Shown here piece after piece: positions 5,309 to 55,664 of a stretch of DNA of 56,374 nucleotides. The position numbers and the translations under genes are program-made. Where the stretch lies: assembly GCA_017403955.1 (NCBI GenBank), contig JAFRDH010000001.1:1-56374 (forward strand), written 5' to 3'. This DNA is from Mogibacterium sp. (lineage in GTDB: Bacteria; Bacillota; Clostridia; Peptostreptococcales; Anaerovoracaceae). The notes beneath the pieces were generated by a model. It was not told the origin of the DNA. It did not search any database and saw nothing but the letters and a program-made list of their open reading frames with translations. Each line of letters opens with the position of its first letter. Within the stretch, counting starts at the first letter, position 1.

Positions 5309-6178
5309 TTAACGGATGTTTTCTTTAATATAATTGATCACGGAGCGGGCGAGAGGTCCCGCTCCTTTTATTGACCTGATACCGATTCCCAGTGATCTGT
5401 ACGATTCCGGATCGAGCATCCTGTATTCATAGCTTCCGGGGAATCTCTCAAGAGTCAGTTTAGGGAGAATGGATATGCCAAGACCATGCTGGACCATGGC
5501 AAGCACGGCAAAGTCGTCCTTGGAGCGGTATTTGACAAAAGATTCAAGACCTGCATCAAACAGGATCTTGTTAGCGTCCGTATCATATTCACGGTAAGTC
5601 ATGATCAGAGGGTGGCCTTTAAGCTCATTTAGTGGAACATAGTCATATTCTGCAAGGACGTGATCAGGCGGGAAAACAACTACCATCGGGTCTTCCAGAA
5701 TAGGAATGAAATCAACTTCATTATTTTCCGGAGCACTCATGAGTGCCAGGTCAAGATCTCCTGCAAGCAGACCGCGCAGCATCTCTTCCTGTCCGCTTTC
5801 TACTATGTTAAATTCCACTTCAGGGTATTCCCTCTGATAGTACCCGATCACCTGAGGGAGCCATGTAGAGGAAGTGCTCACATATGAACCGATCCGAATC
5901 GAACCTCTGTGAATACCGCGGATCTCATCGGCTTCCTGCAGGAATCTTTCTTCCTGAGCGATCATCGAGCGCATCGCAGGTATGAGCATTTTCGCTTCGC
6001 TTGTAGGCTCAACCCCTTTTTTTGTCTTGATGAGAAGCGGGATCCCGAGCTCATCTTCGAATGATTTCATCATCTGCGTCAGATTGGACTGAGTGTATCC
6101 GAGAATCTCTCCGGCTCTTGTGAAACTCCCACTGTCGATCGATGTGAGGAAGACTTTTACCATTTTGAATGTATTCAT
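5309..6178 (-). CDS. LysR family transcriptional regulator
   Basis: A 289-residue LysR-type regulator. The N-terminal winged helix (residues 1-60) shows the family pattern FLTSIDSGSFTRAGEILG then TQSNLTQMMKSFEDELG. The effector-binding periplasmic-binding-protein-like fold follows (IRIGSYVSTSSTWLPQVI, then DLALMSAP, then HGLGISILPKL). The ATG at 6178 has AAGAGG five bases upstream. It is divergent from a BrnQ-type carrier with a 150-bp AT-rich gap, the usual layout for a LysR protein controlling its neighbour. The signal is probably related to the transported amino acid, by context only. Confidence 0.92.
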   Translation of the reverse strand: MNTFKMVKVFLTSIDSGSFTRAGEILGYTQSNLTQMMKSFEDELGIPLLIKTKKGVEPTSEAKMLIPAMRSMIAQEERFLQEADEIRGIHRGSIRIGSYVSTSSTWLPQVIGYYQREYPEVEFNIVESGQEEMLRGLLAGDLDLALMSAPENNEVDFIPILEDPMVVVFPPDHVLAEYDYVPLNELKGHPLIMTYREYDTDANKILFDAGLESFVKYRSKDDFAVLAMVQHGLGISILPKLTLERFPGSYEYRMLDPESYRSLGIGIRSIKGAGPLARSVINYIKENIR

Positions 6179-6328
6179 AGCAGCCTCTTTTCTGTAATGA
6201 AGCATTAATTGCTGAATTCATTCTATATGTTAAGAAAAATAATATCAATTATTATAACTATTAATTTTTCAATTATGAGTCTAAACGCTATATTGGTATC
6301 ATAGAGAAAGAGTGTGTGGAGGACCATT

Positions 6329-7654
6329 ATGAAAAAGGATCTTGGATTAAAAGAATTACTGGTAATGGGCGGGGCTCTTTTTTCGATGCATTTCGGTGCG
6401 GCATGCATGCTGTTCCCGGTCCAGTGGGGTAAAGATGCAGGTACAGCGCTGTGGCCTATGTTTGCAGGCATCCTCCTTTCAGGAGTGATATTGCCGTACA
6501 CAGGATACCTGGCTCTTGTCAGAGGTAATGGCACTTTCCTTTCGCTGATCCAAAGACTTTCAGGCGGCTTCGGCACATTTTTCGCAGCACTGACTATATT
6601 TGTCATAGGACCGCTTTACATGGTACCCCGCATGAGCGCAGCGGCATGGGCTGCCATTGTACAGCTCACCGGACTTGAGACAGACAGCTATTTGCCGGCG
6701 ATAATCTTCGCTATCGTTTTTTATCTGATCACATACTGGTTTGTAGTGAATCCGGGCAAAGTAATAGACAAAATCGGGAATCTGCTGTTCCCGGTCCTGA
6801 TCGTAGTTGTGACCGCGGTGATAGTAAAGAGCATCGTCAGTCCAATATCAGATGAGTGGGCTGCGCCATCGTTCACTCAGAATCCGGTGGTACACGGGTT
6901 CCTTGAAGGGTATGCAACAGCAGACCTTCAGTGCGCACTGCTCTTCGGAATCATCGTTGTTCATGGAATATTGAATGCGGGAATAGAGGAAAAGGCAGTC
7001 AACAGAAATCTCATCAAAATAGGGATAGTCGGGCTTGGTCTGCTTGCGATAACTATACTCGGACACATGATCGCCGGAGCTAATACAGGAGGTACTATCG
7101 ACCTGACGCTGTCAGCGCTGTATACAGAGATGGTCCTGCAGCTCTGGGGAAGTTTCGGCGGGATACTCTTTAATATAGCCCTTGTCGCAGCAGCTCTGAC
7201 TACTGCAGTCGGCGCAGTGTCATCGACTTCCGAGATCTGGGAGGAGATCCTTCTGGAAAAGAATAAACGAGTCTTTACATACAGGAACTTCTGCATAGCA
7301 TCGTGCGTGCTGTCATGCATTGTATCGTTCGCAGATCTGAATACCATTGTCAGGATCATCGGACCGGTACTTGATGCCTGCTATCCGGCAGCGATCGTAA
7401 TTGCTTTGTACTATTGCCTGTGCAGAAAGCCTGATGACCAGACAAAACTCCGGGCAGGTAACTGGGCAGTTATAAGCGCATTTCTGATAAGTATCCTTCA
7501 GCTAGCGGTCAGATACAGCGAGATGTTTGATTTGGGCTGGGATATGCTGAGCAGGATATATTACGCGTTCCCGCTGGCAGGATACAGTCTTGCATGGCTC
7601 CCGGTCAGCATAATATTGTACGCGGTCATAAGTATCCTTAAACCACATTCATGA
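6329..7654 (+). CDS. brnQ: Branched-chain amino acid transport carrier
   Basis: A 441-residue integral membrane protein with about twelve hydrophobic helices. It resembles the LIV-II/BrnQ branched-chain amino acid:cation symporters that import leucine, isoleucine and valine. Family features include the N-terminal LGLKELLVMGGALFSMHFGA segment with its GAxxFSxHFGAxN-like motif and the conserved small-residue helices that follow. The ATG at 6329 follows TGGAGGA with six bases between. The gene is single, divergent from a LysR regulator, and ends in a strong bidirectional terminator. Substrate specificity is a family inference. Confidence 0.85.
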   Translation: MKKDLGLKELLVMGGALFSMHFGAACMLFPVQWGKDAGTALWPMFAGILLSGVILPYTGYLALVRGNGTFLSLIQRLSGGFGTFFAALTIFVIGPLYMVPRMSAAAWAAIVQLTGLETDSYLPAIIFAIVFYLITYWFVVNPGKVIDKIGNLLFPVLIVVVTAVIVKSIVSPISDEWAAPSFTQNPVVHGFLEGYATADLQCALLFGIIVVHGILNAGIEEKAVNRNLIKIGIVGLGLLAITILGHMIAGANTGGTIDLTLSALYTEMVLQLWGSFGGILFNIALVAAALTTAVGAVSSTSEIWEEILLEKNKRVFTYRNFCIASCVLSCIVSFADLNTIVRIIGPVLDACYPAAIVIALYYCLCRKPDDQTKLRAGNWAVISAFLISILQLAVRYSEMFDLGWDMLSRIYYAFPLAGYSLAWLPVSIILYAVISILKPHS

Positions 7655-50547: not shown

Positions 50548-50623
50548 GGGGCGTTAGCTCAGCTGGGAGAGCGCAAGGTTCGCAATCTTGAGGCCAGGGG
50601 TTCGATCCCCCTACGCTCCACCA
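50548..50623 (+). tRNA. tRNA-Ala (anticodon CGC)
   Basis: The 76 bases fold as a full cloverleaf with encoded CCA. The acceptor arm GGGGCGT/ACGCTCC contains the G3-U70 pair that marks alanine tRNAs. The D stem is GCTC/GAGC, the anticodon stem CAAGG/TCTTG has loop TTCGCAA with anticodon CGC (codon GCG), and the T stem is AGGGG/CCCCT with TTCGATC. Its 3' part is the left end of a repeat found again at 55.4 kb, so the gene is the probable attachment site of an island. Confidence 0.95.
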
Positions 50624-50716
50624 TAGTCACAAGGAGGGGCCCATCTGTCCGAAGGACTGATGGGAAGATCCCTTATGACATTACCACACCAGACCCGTTG
50701 AAAAATCAACGGGTCT
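50601..50716 (+). repeat. Left copy of island direct repeat (attL-like)
   Basis: From TTCGATCCCC in the T-loop through CCA, a CCCATC/GATGGG hairpin and the terminator. Compared with 55413-55527 it differs by one T/C change after CCA, one extra G, and the terminator loop (GAAAAATC against GGAATTCC). Confidence 0.85.
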
Positions 50717-50721
50717 ATTCT
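50691..50721 (+). terminator. Rho-independent terminator after tRNA-Ala
   Basis: AGACCCGTTG (50691-50700) pairs perfectly with CAACGGGTCT (50707-50716) around AAAAAT, followed by ATTCTTTT. Confidence 0.88.
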
Positions 50722-50729
50722 TTTGGCGG

Positions 50730-52706: not shown

Positions 52707-53039
52707 ATGTATTATGCGACGCTGTGTTTATTTATGATTCTGATAATTACAGTTCTTATAATTGTCCTTATCATCAAAGCCCTTAGAAAGTATATCAACT
52801 CAAAGCCTGCACGCGAGGAGAAGAACCAGAATGCGAGGAATCTTGGAGAAGTGATTCGTGCTTACCGCACAGAGAACAAGATGACTCAGGAATTCGTTGC
52901 AGAACAATTGGGAGTAAGCAGGCAGGCTGTCTCTAAATGGGAAAGCGGAGCGAGTGATCCCAGTACGACAAATTTGATTGCCCTGGCAAAGTTGTTCAAG
53001 ATAGATCCTGAGGAGCTGATAAGGAGTATTACATATTAA
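52707..53039 (+). CDS. Membrane-anchored XRE-type regulator
   Basis: A 110-residue protein with an N-terminal transmembrane helix (residues 3-25, LCLFMILIITVLIIVLIIKA), a short basic linker and a Cro/CI-type helix-turn-helix (about 45-105: MTQEFVAEQLGVSRQAVSKWE). Cytoplasmic DNA-binding domains anchored in the membrane are unusual for the XRE family, although several Bacillota examples exist. AAAGGAGGATGATTTC precedes the ATG. It sits between the DUF2812 gene and the attenuator-controlled methyltransferase. Its target is unknown; autoregulation is possible. Confidence 0.85.
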   Translation: MYYATLCLFMILIITVLIIVLIIKALRKYINSKPAREEKNQNARNLGEVIRAYRTENKMTQEFVAEQLGVSRQAVSKWESGASDPSTTNLIALAKLFKIDPEELIRSITY

Positions 53040-53069
53040 TTGACTCAGCAGATATATATGTGTTAATCT
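53040..53069 (+). promoter_or_regulatory. Probable promoter of the methyltransferase leader
   Basis: TTGACT (53040-53045) is followed by 17 to 18 bases and a weak extended -10, TG-T-TAATCT (53061-53069). The transcript would start near 53076, about 25 bases before the leader ORF. Confidence 0.45.
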
Positions 53070-53100
53070 CAACAATAATTAGTGAACTGGAATTTGTATT

Positions 53101-53205
53101 ATGAAAAAGCTTTTTGTATCTGTAAATGTGAATAATAGCAATATAACCCTGAACAATCATCAGGGAGATTCTTTTCGTTCACATATAAGAGGCAAGAAGC
53201 GTTGA
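53101..53205 (+). CDS. Leader peptide of the methyltransferase gene (34 residues)
   Basis: ATG at 53101 opens a 34-codon ORF that begins MKKLFVSVNVNNSN, is rich in Asn and ends HIRGKKR before TGA at 53203. A weak TGGAA lies eight bases before the ATG. The codons near the end include the RNA segment AGAGGCAAG (53188-53196) that can pair with the 5' arm of the downstream terminator. A hairpin CCCTGA/TCAGGG (53147-53152 and 53160-53165) lies within the ORF. I infer a translated leader whose ribosome position decides termination. Coding is inferred from layout only. Confidence 0.5.
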   Translation: MKKLFVSVNVNNSNITLNNHQGDSFRSHIRGKKR

Positions 53206-53282
53206 ACAGTACTAAGTAGGTCTTCACCAAAAACACGTTACTGAAGCGAAGCTTGTCTCTAAAAGAGGCAGGCTGTTTTTTT
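53188..53282 (+). promoter_or_regulatory. Transcription attenuator before the methyltransferase gene
   Basis: The terminator is an 11-bp stem, 53250-53260 with 53264-53274, loop AAA, then seven T residues (53276-53282), ending just before the ribosome binding site GGAGAAG. The 5' arm (CTTGTCTCT, 53252-53260) can instead pair with AGAGGCAAG (53188-53196), nine pairs with one G-U. The upstream segment copies the terminator 3' arm, AGAGGCAGG, so the two structures exclude each other. Confidence 0.65.
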
Positions 53283-53295
53283 ACGGAGAAGTGAT

Positions 53296-54102
53296 ATGAG
53301 CAGGAGAGAGGAAATCGTAAAAACAATATATGAGAACTACTGTGAAGATGAACGCCTTGAACGTACAAGGCATGGCCAGCTAGAGTATCTGACAACGATG
53401 ACATATATTCATAAGTATCTCAATGATGGTGCGAGAATACTTGAAATCGGTGCAGGTACCGGCCGCTATTCTATTGCTCTCGCAAAAGAAGGTTATAATG
53501 TTACGGCAGTTGAACTTGTAAATCACAATCTGGATATCCTTCGTCACAATGGCTCCGGAATTGAGAGCCTTACAGCGATACATGGTGATGCAACTGACCT
53601 TTCGATGTTCGGTGATGACTTGTTTGATATGACGCTTATCTTCGGCCCGCTATATCACCTGTATGAGCTTGCAGATCAGCATAAAGCTATTGATGAAGCG
53701 ATAAGAGTGACAAAGCCGGGAGGCGTTATAATGACCGCATTTCTTTCAATACATGCGCTGATGTACACAAACTATCTATATGATGGGTTTAAAGGCGGAC
53801 TTGAAGAGAATTTCACCGATGATTATAGGGTGAGGCATTTTGAAGATCAGTTGTTTACAGGGTTCGATATTGCTGAATTTGAAGACTTGTTTTCAGATAA
53901 ACCCATCGCCTGGCTCAAGACCGTGGCAGCAGACAGTGTGCTTGAATACGGCGAGAGATGGAGCGGACTTGAAATTGATGATGAAGATTTCGAGTTGTTT
54001 TCAAGATATCACCTTGCGACATGCGAGGTCAGGGAGTTGCTTGGAAGTTCAAGTCACCTGATACATATCTGCAGAAAAACCGCAGGGGAGGATTCGAAAT
54101 GA
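53296..54102 (+). CDS. Class I SAM-dependent methyltransferase
   Basis: A 268-residue Rossmann-fold methyltransferase. Motif I is ILEIGAGTGRYSIALAKEG, then VTAVELVNHNLDIL, AIHGDATDLSMF and MTLIFGPLYHLYE. The last corresponds to the family's motif IV region. It matches a common Bacillota group of unknown substrate; I do not recognise it as an Erm-type rRNA methyltransferase. CGGAGAAGTGAT precedes the ATG. Unusually, a strong terminator stands directly before that site, behind a short leader ORF. Its stop overlaps the GNAT gene by four bases. An antibiotic-response or modification role is possible because of the attenuator, but this is inference. Confidence 0.9.
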   Translation: MSRREEIVKTIYENYCEDERLERTRHGQLEYLTTMTYIHKYLNDGARILEIGAGTGRYSIALAKEGYNVTAVELVNHNLDILRHNGSGIESLTAIHGDATDLSMFGDDLFDMTLIFGPLYHLYELADQHKAIDEAIRVTKPGGVIMTAFLSIHALMYTNYLYDGFKGGLEENFTDDYRVRHFEDQLFTGFDIAEFEDLFSDKPIAWLKTVAADSVLEYGERWSGLEIDDEDFELFSRYHLATCEVRELLGSSSHLIHICRKTAGEDSK

Positions 54103-54626
54103 GCATAAAACTTATAAGACCATCGATCAAATATGCAGATCAGGTTATGCAATACAAAGTCACTATGGAGGCAATCGGAGATAGTCTTGACGGATGTGCT
54201 GATCTTGGTGACTGCAGAACCTTTTCTGAATGGATGGATTTCGAGAGAAGGCTGAAAGCAAAATATATGGAAGGATATGTACCATCTGAGACATATCTTG
54301 CAGTCAGACCTTCAGATGATAAAGTGATTGGTATGATTGATTACCGTATGCGCCTCACACCATTTCTGATGCAATACGGTGGAAATATAGGCTATAGTGT
54401 GTTGCCATCCGAACGCAGAAAAGGATATGCTTCTGAAATGCTAAAAATGATTCTTTCCATTTGTAGAGATTATGGTGAGAGTAAAGTACTGGTAACCTGC
54501 GATAAGAATAATGAAGCATCAAGGAAAACAATTATTAAAAATGGTGGAGTTCTGGAGAATGAGATAGAGCTTGATGGCGAAACCGGCAGCAAAGAAATCA
54601 TTCAAAGATTCTGGATCAAGTTATAA
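54099..54626 (+). CDS. GNAT family N-acetyltransferase
   Basis: A 175-residue GNAT acetyltransferase. The core is TYLAVRPSDDKVIGMIDYRMRL, then IGYSVLPSERRKGYASEMLKM with the acetyl-CoA loop (R-R-K-G-Y-A), and VTCDKNNEASRKTIIKNGG, all typical. The ATG at 54099 follows GGGGAGGATTCGAA and overlaps the methyltransferase stop, so both are translated together. Relatives include small-molecule acetyltransferases and drug-resistance enzymes, but the substrate is not predictable from these motifs. It may share the methyltransferase attenuator. Confidence 0.9.
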   Translation: MSIKLIRPSIKYADQVMQYKVTMEAIGDSLDGCADLGDCRTFSEWMDFERRLKAKYMEGYVPSETYLAVRPSDDKVIGMIDYRMRLTPFLMQYGGNIGYSVLPSERRKGYASEMLKMILSICRDYGESKVLVTCDKNNEASRKTIIKNGGVLENEIELDGETGSKEIIQRFWIKL

Positions 54627-54768: not shown

Positions 54769-55047
54769 ATGGCAGCAACAACACCAACCCAAATCAGAAT
54801 AGATAAAAATGTAAAAGAACAGGCAAATGCACTGTTTGCTAATCTTGGACTCGATATGTCCAGTGCAGTCAATATGTTTCTCCGCCAGTGTATTCTTCGC
54901 GGCGGGCTTCCTTTTGCTGTAGAGATGCCTCAGTATAATCAGGAAACTCTGAATGCCATGACTGAAGCCAGAAAGATCTCTAAAGATTCTTCTGTTCCCG
55001 GGTACAATAATATGGCTGATCTTATAAATGCACTTGAGGAGGACTAA
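54769..55047 (+). CDS. RelB/DinJ family antitoxin
   Basis: A 92-residue antitoxin of the RelB/DinJ type. The N-terminal ribbon-helix-helix is TQIRIDKNVKEQANALFANLG, then LDMSSAVNMFLRQCILRGGLPF. The C-terminal about 35 residues are the flexible toxin-binding part. It binds the toxin and represses its own promoter. GAAAGGAGATGATGAGAC precedes the ATG. The stop codon is directly followed by the ATG of the YafQ-like toxin, the classical two-gene arrangement. Confidence 0.9.
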   Translation: MAATTPTQIRIDKNVKEQANALFANLGLDMSSAVNMFLRQCILRGGLPFAVEMPQYNQETLNAMTEARKISKDSSVPGYNNMADLINALEED

Positions 55048-55326
55048 ATGTATACCATTAAGTTCACCAGTGCGTATAAGAAAAGTTATAAACGTATAAG
55101 CAAACGTGGTTATGACATGTCACTTCTAAACGATGTAGTTGATATGTTGAGAAGAGGTGTGGAATTGCCAGAACAGTACCGCGATCATATCCTTCAGGGT
55201 GAGTATAAAGGCTTTCATGAGTGCCACATAAAGCCAGACTGGCTTTTGATATATCTTGTAGAAGAAGACATAATTACGTTAACACTGGTCAATACCGGAA
55301 CGCATTCAGACTTGTTCAAACTGTAA
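55048..55326 (+). CDS. YafQ/RelE family mRNA interferase toxin
   Basis: A 92-residue ribosome-dependent endoribonuclease toxin of the YafQ type. Compared with E. coli YafQ, the catalytic residues are all visible: His47, His60, Asp64 with Trp65 (HIKPDW), and His86 with Phe90 (GTHSDLF). It therefore looks active, cutting mRNA on the ribosome when the antitoxin is lost. It begins directly after the antitoxin stop. It is the last gene before the right-hand repeats, where it could stabilise the island. Confidence 0.92.
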   Translation: MYTIKFTSAYKKSYKRISKRGYDMSLLNDVVDMLRRGVELPEQYRDHILQGEYKGFHECHIKPDWLLIYLVEEDIITLTLVNTGTHSDLFKL

Positions 55327-55412: not shown

Positions 55413-55527
55413 TTCGATCCCCCTACGCTCCACCACAGTCACAAGGAGGGCCCATCTGTCCGAAGGACTGATGGGAAGATCCCTTATGACATTACCACAC
55501 CAGACCCGTTGGAATTCCAACGGGTCT
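55413..55527 (+). repeat. Right copy of island direct repeat with partial tRNA-Ala (attR-like)
   Basis: Carries TTCGATCCCC through CCA of tRNA-Ala and the following about 90 bases. Upstream, CAAGGTTTGCA (55387-55397) resembles the anticodon arm CAAGGTTCGCA, but the tRNA body is otherwise lost. Apart from this and the TGATTAGATG copies, 55327-55664 holds only the terminator below. Confidence 0.8.
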
Positions 55528-55530
55528 TTC
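55502..55530 (+). terminator. Rho-independent terminator, right repeat
   Basis: AGACCCGTTGG (55502-55512) pairs perfectly with CCAACGGGTCT (55517-55527) around AATT, followed by TTCTTTATG. Confidence 0.85.
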
Positions 55531-55664
55531 TTTATGCTATACTTTTTGAAAGATGTACAAATCGGCAGTTTGTGGAGGTAATGGGATTCCAATAAAACAG
55601 CATTGTATGAATTGAATTGTCGCTTGCTTGAAGCATGTTAAATTGAGGGATTGGAGTGGAAACC

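Follow-up and report, generated by a model that had tools for sequence, protein, structure and literature searches.

On balance, the leader in front of a methyltransferase-GNAT operon of Mogibacterium would seem to act in the manner of a tRNA-supply attenuator with a tuning to Asn codons, and not in that of an antibiotic leader of the macrolide type. The operon lies in a stretch of 56,374 nucleotides, here called the window. We say that its leader works like such an attenuator, not that it is one, because a methyltransferase (MT) and a GNAT gene stand behind it and no rtcB or tRNA genes. Judging from the genes found downstream of its relatives, the genus appears to use this leader family mostly for tRNA arrays, the RNA ligase RtcB and their neighbours. 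The computation supports the anatomy of the leader, its kinship, the rival pairing around one common arm, the ON and OFF zones predicted for the ribosome and, for several leaders of tRNA arrays, a link between leader codons and encoded tRNAs.

All elements of the window leader (53040-53296) are read on the forward strand. A weak candidate promoter, TTGACT-17-TTAATC (53040..53068), was recognised by eye, as was TTGACT-18-GATAAT in the orthologue L044; a promoter scan of the window leader region reported no sigma-70 promoter on this strand. The leader ORF (53101..53205), with a weak Shine-Dalgarno sequence (TGGAA, by eye), encodes the peptide MKKLFVSVNVNNSNITLNNHQGDSFRSHIRGKKR and comprises 34 codons, as do the leader ORFs of G023, G044 and the paralogue C7. 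Its codons 9-19 (53125..53157) are rich in Asn (N9, N11, N12, N14, N18 and N19) and form the proposed sensor. Segment 1 (53109..53121) is the partner of 53188-53200 in a leader hairpin, and segment 2 (AGAGGCAAG, 53188..53196) is situated at the leader end and serves as antiterminator partner of segment 3. Segment 3 (53250..53260) is the 5' arm of the terminator, common to terminator and antiterminator, and segment 4 (53264..53282) consists of the terminator 3' arm (53264-53274), a G and seven T (53276-53282). The ribosome binding site GGAG (53285-53288) and the MT start (53296) complete the region. Leader ORF, terminator and ribosome binding site had all been located by an initial annotation and are confirmed in place; the terminator is also above chance, since both strands of 52950-53350 hold three terminator-like sites including 53250-53274, where 50 shuffles give 0.1 on average. 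Alone it has a folding energy of -14.5 kcal/mol. Directly 5' of the leader a gene for an HTH_3 protein is found (52707-53039), whose hydrophobic N-terminus, noted by eye, would perhaps place it at the membrane.

In the window itself, AGAGGCAAG (53188-53196) is complementary to CTTGTCTCT (53252-53260). When the window leader is shuffled by mononucleotides, 181 of 5000 versions contain a helix of nine pairs with G-U allowed (P of about 0.04), and as a single-sequence match the pairing of segments 2 and 3 is therefore only modestly unlikely to arise by chance. Relatives were needed because the alternative pairing alone is not far above chance. In minimum free energy folds 53109-53121 pairs with 53188-53200, an element absent from the initial annotation; the window and its paralogue C7 therefore follow a four-segment scheme (1:2, 2:3 and 3:4). 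The competing effect of segment 1 is missing in the masked folding of G044. Covariation of the leader hairpin 1:2 was considered and rejected, as only 5 of 43 predicted pairs of the whole model are changed on both sides and many are broken. At Rfam gathering scores the window yields tRNA-Ala alone, with no T-box or other leader RNA, and 13 related loci yield tRNA and ROOL alone.

Kinship was established by covariance models. The first model, built from the four MT leaders only, gave 28 matches in a search of the genus with E up to 1, comprising the four MT leaders, 18 others that read as the same kind and six that look like chance. The targets of the 18 are rtcB, a small HTH gene followed by tRNA arrays, tRNA genes, or a phosphoesterase gene with a tRNA array. 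In the reverse direction, model R2, trained on 22 leaders of rtcB and tRNA arrays with the window leader not included, recovers the window (53086-53281) at E=2.7e-6 and C7 at 0.0058 in a search of 101,577 bases. Matched by a model that was not trained on it, the window leader can thus be assigned by sequence to the family described by models R1-R3. A census with the combined model R3 lists 41 leaders in 17 of the 47 genomes of the genus, five of them in the genome of the window. Downstream of these leaders, rtcB and/or tRNA genes are found in 36 cases, an RNase-H-like gene (PF04308) in one and MT-GNAT in four; targets were sought within 6 kb downstream, or as far as the contig reached, genes being named by motif and representatives checked with Pfam. 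Of the 27 training leaders of R3, some had been picked up at rtcB loci or through a motif search of retrieved DNA for arms resembling CTTGTCTC, which biases the share of rtcB targets and the constancy of the arm in that direction; the matches of the first model are free of this bias.

The five leaders in the genome of the window precede an HTH-DUF2828-rtcB operon, a 7-tRNA array, a tRNA-Leu gene together with the RNase-H-like gene, and two MT-GNAT operons. Up to 17 tRNAs follow a single leader, and the arrays behind the two leaders of G008 jointly cover 19 of the 20 amino acids. Neighbouring genes of the family code for DUF2828/DUF7788 proteins, RNA ligase, phosphoesterases and macro domains (Pfam). 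The proposition that rtcB always comes with a leader was rejected, as a motif scan places a leader ahead in the same gene run at 14 of 18 rtcB positions, directly in front in 13 and separated by HTH and DUF2828 genes at G000:C12:84063. The same scan found no leader at the rtcB genes of G028, G010:C53, G026 and G000:C12:87723. In the genome of the window, one rtcB gene is located upstream and one downstream of a leader (L148:9715-10851 and 6055-7344), accompanied by HTH, DUF2828/DUF7788 and macro-domain genes. A ROOL RNA lies inside a tRNA array adjoining one leader (L114:705-1262).

The pairing of the terminator 5' arm with the leader end, asserted in the initial annotation for the window, recurs in most of the family, with all eight pairs intact in 25 of 27 aligned leaders; the terminator helix 3:4 is likewise intact in 26 of the 27. 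Segment 3 (CTTGTCTC) is identical in all 27, segment 2 takes 10 forms and segment 4 takes seven. Over the whole census, segment 3 reads CTTGTCTC in 38 leaders and CCTGCCTC in one, and was not found in two; 3:4 is complete in 38 of 41, and 2:3, by a free search for the best partner, is complete in 31 and lacks one pair in seven. A constant arm with two partners that drift via G-C, A-U and G-U pairs is what two competing helices would demand. In alignment A3 (22 of the 24 non-MT leaders at hand, with L122 and L110, whose arm is CCTGCCTC, left out), 95.9% of the cells are paired for the terminator helix and 94.5% for the antiterminator, compared to 21-57% when the segments are slid. Alignment A4 covers 27 of 32 leaders (G023, L099, L134, L110 and L122 left out). 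Truncated at segment 3, the alignment folds as antiterminator, and in full as terminator; on these sequences, terminator and antiterminator appear to have one arm in common, as is expected of a ribosome-mediated transcription attenuator. A check for covariation in homologues, suggested together with the original claim, turned out favourably in that both stems are kept in most leaders and unfavourably in that pairs changed on both sides do not exceed those in shuffles (256 and 66 of 500 shuffles reach the observed number). Strict covariation of the rival stems is weak. A possible sign of translation of the leader is seen in gaps: in 22 related leaders of rtcB and tRNA arrays, four of four distinct gap patterns within the ORF are multiples of 3, compared with three of 11 downstream of the stop. 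A comparison of the window leader with that of G044 by eye gives mostly non-synonymous codon differences (five, with one synonymous), and in C7 the leader end lies outside the reading frame of the window leader, which keeps the RNA of segment 2 and not the peptide end. The reading of the region as an ordinary terminator next to a chance ORF between genes gains from the P of about 0.04 for the single-sequence pairing, the weak Shine-Dalgarno sequence and the weak strict covariation; set against the R2 match of the window, the in-frame gaps, the census of 41 leaders and the conserved rival pairings, it is highly improbable.

The position of the ribosome is predicted to decide the fold of the window leader. 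A ribosome mask was moved along each of 27 leaders and the probability of the antiterminator was read out. When the ribosome sits at codon 10, this probability is 0.87 or higher in all 27, and when it sits at codon 30, the probability never exceeds 0.25. The window leader is OFF (0.25) when no ribosome is present. It is ON while the ribosome occupies codons 2-16, low for 18-22, ON once more for 24-26, and OFF for positions between codon 27 and the stop. Folding with and without a mask had been proposed as a check, and its outcome agrees with the expected behaviour: a ribosome at codons 2-16 leaves the leader end free and one at codons 27 to stop covers it. C7 is similarly OFF (0.08) when unoccupied, and only a ribosome at codons 2-16 turns it ON; G044 needs no ribosome to be ON and is partly ON at codons 27-33. 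Among the non-MT leaders, 22 of 24 are ON (0.86 or more) without a ribosome, and once the ribosome has moved to the last codon shown, 22 of 24 return to ON (0.71 or more). Termination at rtcB and array leaders would therefore depend on a well-timed ribosome in the neighbourhood of codons 28-36.

A further relationship concerns the codons of the leaders and the tRNAs encoded behind them. Downstream tRNAs are present for 31 leaders (30 of the 41 in the census plus G175), of which 29 with at least three tRNAs were used in a permutation by clusters, the leaders being grouped to 6, 11 or 14 clusters and the codon border of 27 being taken from the masked folding. Codons 2-27 match, by amino acid or by codon, the tRNAs of the leader's own operon over those of other operons, with median P of 0.004, 0.001 and 0.001 (0.001 is the floor of this test, and the largest P for codons 2-27 is 0.036). 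From codon 28 onwards, where segment 2 has to be preserved, there is no such match (medians 0.43-0.92). Among hand-made groups, 0.64 of the residues 2-27 of A-type leaders are amino acids of A arrays and 0.31 of B arrays; for B-type leaders the shares are 0.58 for B arrays and 0.41 for A arrays. Single leaders were also tested, in units that were picked by hand after the pattern was known (the cluster permutation used all). In G000:C17, from the genome of the window, 17 of 26 codons are served by its seven tRNAs (expected 9.8, P=0.004); in G040:C68:7094 (MLNTRRLPRTNNRTTRFPR...), located before Pro, Arg, Thr, Lys and Arg tRNAs, 19 of 41 codons match (expected 8.3, P=1e-4); and in G008:C11:76123 it is 21 of 26 (expected 11.1, P=1e-4). 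The match is carried by the array-A leaders, C17 and three leaders of G040. Taken singly, B-type leaders (0.59 vs 0.51 for protein windows), G017b, G010:C91 and C43 do not reach significance, nor do they exceed ordinary protein windows. An alternative idea, the leader as universal codon sampler, was dropped in favour of the match to own tRNAs because it is weak when compared with composition: 16-20 different amino acids occur in rtcB and array leaders, which singly are mostly not significant against their composition (P 0.01-0.81).

The window operon has no tRNA genes; its leader stands out by its Asn codons. Codons 2-27 contain six Asn in the window, seven in G044 and G023 and seven in C7, compared to at most three in the 35 other distinct leaders. 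Counts of 6-7 in 26 have binomial probabilities of 3.6e-4 and 4e-5, and at least six Asn are found in 0.36% of 3026 protein windows of 34 aa; these counts are not independent, as the MT leaders share ancestry. Within the predicted ON zone of codons 2-16 lie four of the six Asn codons in the window and six of seven in C7, a paralogue that keeps its Asn codons though much else has changed. The window leader may thus act as a tRNA-Asn alarm.

The methyltransferase behind it (53296..54102, forward strand, 268 aa) is a class I SAM-dependent enzyme (Pfam Methyltransf_11, 2.5e-16), whose stop overlaps in ATGA with the start of the GNAT acetyltransferase (54099..54626, forward strand, 175 aa; Acetyltransf_3, 9.4e-11). 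Both proteins are generic by sequence. Among the 25 of 39 NCBIfam models listed, none identifies a known resistance gene downstream of the leader above its cut-off, and the MT is below the cut-off of every one, Erm included (27.7 vs 212 bits); a single PADLOC match aligns the MT with part of mad2 (9.3e-19, profile 252-421 of 492). Two genomes of the genus carry MTs of 93% and 90% identity, each with the leader. In the genome of the window itself, G000:C7 is a second copy (MT 60% identical) that likewise has leader, terminator and GNAT, the latter a strong Acetyltransf_3 (7.7e-26 vs 9.4e-11 in the window), so that the two GNATs differ in kind. In G023 the sequence 5' of the leader is unlike that of the window and leader, MT and GNAT remain together; the leader therefore seems to travel with the operon. 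A leader tied to the MT family as such was rejected, since in a set made up of the window and 39 loci, with some overlap between loci, the leader is matched just in the window and C7, with matches to the window antisense strand (E 0.008) and to L088 and L078 (E 0.32 and 0.46) set aside. No leader was found at more distant MT homologues, and no relatives of the MT in the virus collection. A direct repeat of about 125 nt (50601-50725 and 55413-55536, two gap-free blocks 91% and 95% identical, 4.81 kb apart) begins in the 3' end of tRNA-Ala(CGC) and brackets the MT-GNAT segment in an island-like manner; there is no integrase among the proteins scanned in the segment between the repeats. Genes for a RelB-like antitoxin and a YafQ-like toxin (54769-55326) are also located within it, directly 3' of MT-GNAT.

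We propose that RNA polymerase would transcribe the leader while a ribosome reads the leader ORF. A ribosome reaching the end of the window leader would cover segment 2, the 3:4 terminator would form, and transcription would stop before the MT. If the ribosome stalled early, segment 2 would be free to pair with segment 3, no terminator would form, and MT and GNAT would be made. The natural cue may be a shortage of usable tRNA, be it cleaved, uncharged or otherwise lost, in the window copy mainly tRNA-Asn, and MT and GNAT might protect against the cause of that shortage. It is possible, and we put it forward tentatively, that spare tRNA operons of the family are switched on by loss of their own products, and that the window is a tRNA-Asn alarm arming MT-GNAT against an agent, for instance an anticodon nuclease, by which tRNA-Asn is destroyed or starved. 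If true, the loss of particular tRNAs would be sensed through codons and answered with replacement tRNAs and RNA repair, and no protein sensor such as RtcR or TrcR would be needed. Sequence would then predict which tRNA each leader senses, and the MT-GNAT pair would be an unrecognised part of the response to tRNA loss.

Two other cues may be considered for the same switch. The initial annotation likened the leader to those inducible by ribosome-targeting antibiotics, and its logic of a ribosome-controlled attenuator is upheld as a prediction by the masked folding and by rival pairings kept in most homologues. The cue it suggested fares less well: 36 of 41 relatives precede rtcB or tRNA genes, array codons match their own tRNAs, and the ON zone of the window is rich in Asn. 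That a drug-bound ribosome stalls and thereby induces a resistance MT and acetyltransferase is thus an unlikely reading. Methyltransferases and GNATs are common resistance chemistries, and some MT homologues are situated behind genes that by eye look like TetR. The attenuator logic is also the same as that described for msrD in excerpts of PMC10314930, and a tylosin-induced methyltransferase of B. subtilis has a leader peptide according to excerpts of PMC6851288. However, the +X+ motif, as given in the excerpts of PMC10314930, is absent from codons 2-26, and the Arg/Lys-X-Arg/Lys stretch RGKKR (codons 30-34) is in the OFF zone, where a stall would lead to termination; the MT is, moreover, far under the Erm cut-off.

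The second possibility is a general switch for translation stress, in which any slowing or failure of leader translation, antibiotics included, opens the operon with no preference for codons. In the masked folding, stalls at nearly any codon from 2 to 24 free segment 2 in most leaders, 22 of 24 rtcB and array leaders are ON without any ribosome, and a tRNA operon of Anabaena is induced by translation-targeting antibiotics (excerpts of PMC10272220). We nevertheless regard this reading as doubtful: leaders match their own tRNAs in codons 2-27 and not later, the MT leaders have a run of Asn, and in window and C7 the switch is predicted to be OFF when no ribosome is present and to turn ON at codons 2-16.

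The proposed tRNA-supply attenuator resembles several known systems, as far as these are described in the excerpts cited. In amino-acid operon attenuators of the trp/his type (PMC1183508) a leader ORF contains regulatory codons and slow translation lets transcription continue, as proposed here; unlike these, most leaders of the present family stand before tRNA genes and RNA ligase, the window copy before MT-GNAT, and leader codons match downstream tRNAs. In the PA5471.1-armZ-mexXY system of P. aeruginosa (PMC13041342) ribosome stalling on a leader peptide signals a tRNA defect, the loss of Cca, and the gene that follows is transcribed more strongly. Such stalling as signal of a tRNA defect would be common to both, but taxon and targets are different; the comparison is of described behaviour. 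Anabaena harbours a silent array of 26 tRNAs (trn operon) and rtcB, switched on by translation stress under TrcR, with a GNAT gene in the gene table (PMC10272220); control there is by a DNA-binding repressor, and the terms 'leader' and 'attenuat' have 0 matches in the main text. The Salmonella rsr-yrlBA-rtcBA operon (PMC7790460) responds to damaged tRNA with RNA repair, but its sensor, RtcR, is a CARF-domain sigma-54 activator. The macrolide leaders mefAL, msrDL and ErmDL stall before resistance genes, mefA and msrD being controlled by transcription attenuation (PMC10314930); these are drug-arrest peptides of 6-14 residues with other sequence, and on our reading the cue differs. Leader-peptide attenuation, leader sensing of a tRNA defect, stress induction of a tRNA array with rtcB, and control of rtcB by damaged tRNA are therefore each known singly. 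Leader-peptide control of tRNA arrays or rtcB is undescribed among the matches listed in open-licence PMC literature (titles and abstract starts), and the joining of these features, together with a match between the codons of a leader and the tRNAs of its operon, is likewise absent from them.

The taxonomic reach of the leader extends beyond the genus. Of 247 genomes of the taxonomic family, seven have matches, including G175, G104 and G318 from other genera, each with rtcB downstream; the match in G242 reads as chance. A wide reach across the class was rejected: 391 genomes gave weak matches in 10 other genomes, which read as ordinary terminators or AT-rich stretches, a weak negative since the search scored just six candidates per genome. 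No tRNAs were detected at these loci by ARAGORN, rtcB is never the longest next ORF, and L176, also from the class-wide search, is at most doubtful as a family leader. One 19-mer of a leader was not found in the virus collection. In L230 (2343-2560) and a near-identical contig of that collection, L231, an rtcB gene (72% identical) is preceded by a 43-codon ORF of different sequence and a strong terminator, possibly a convergent leader or a far relative.
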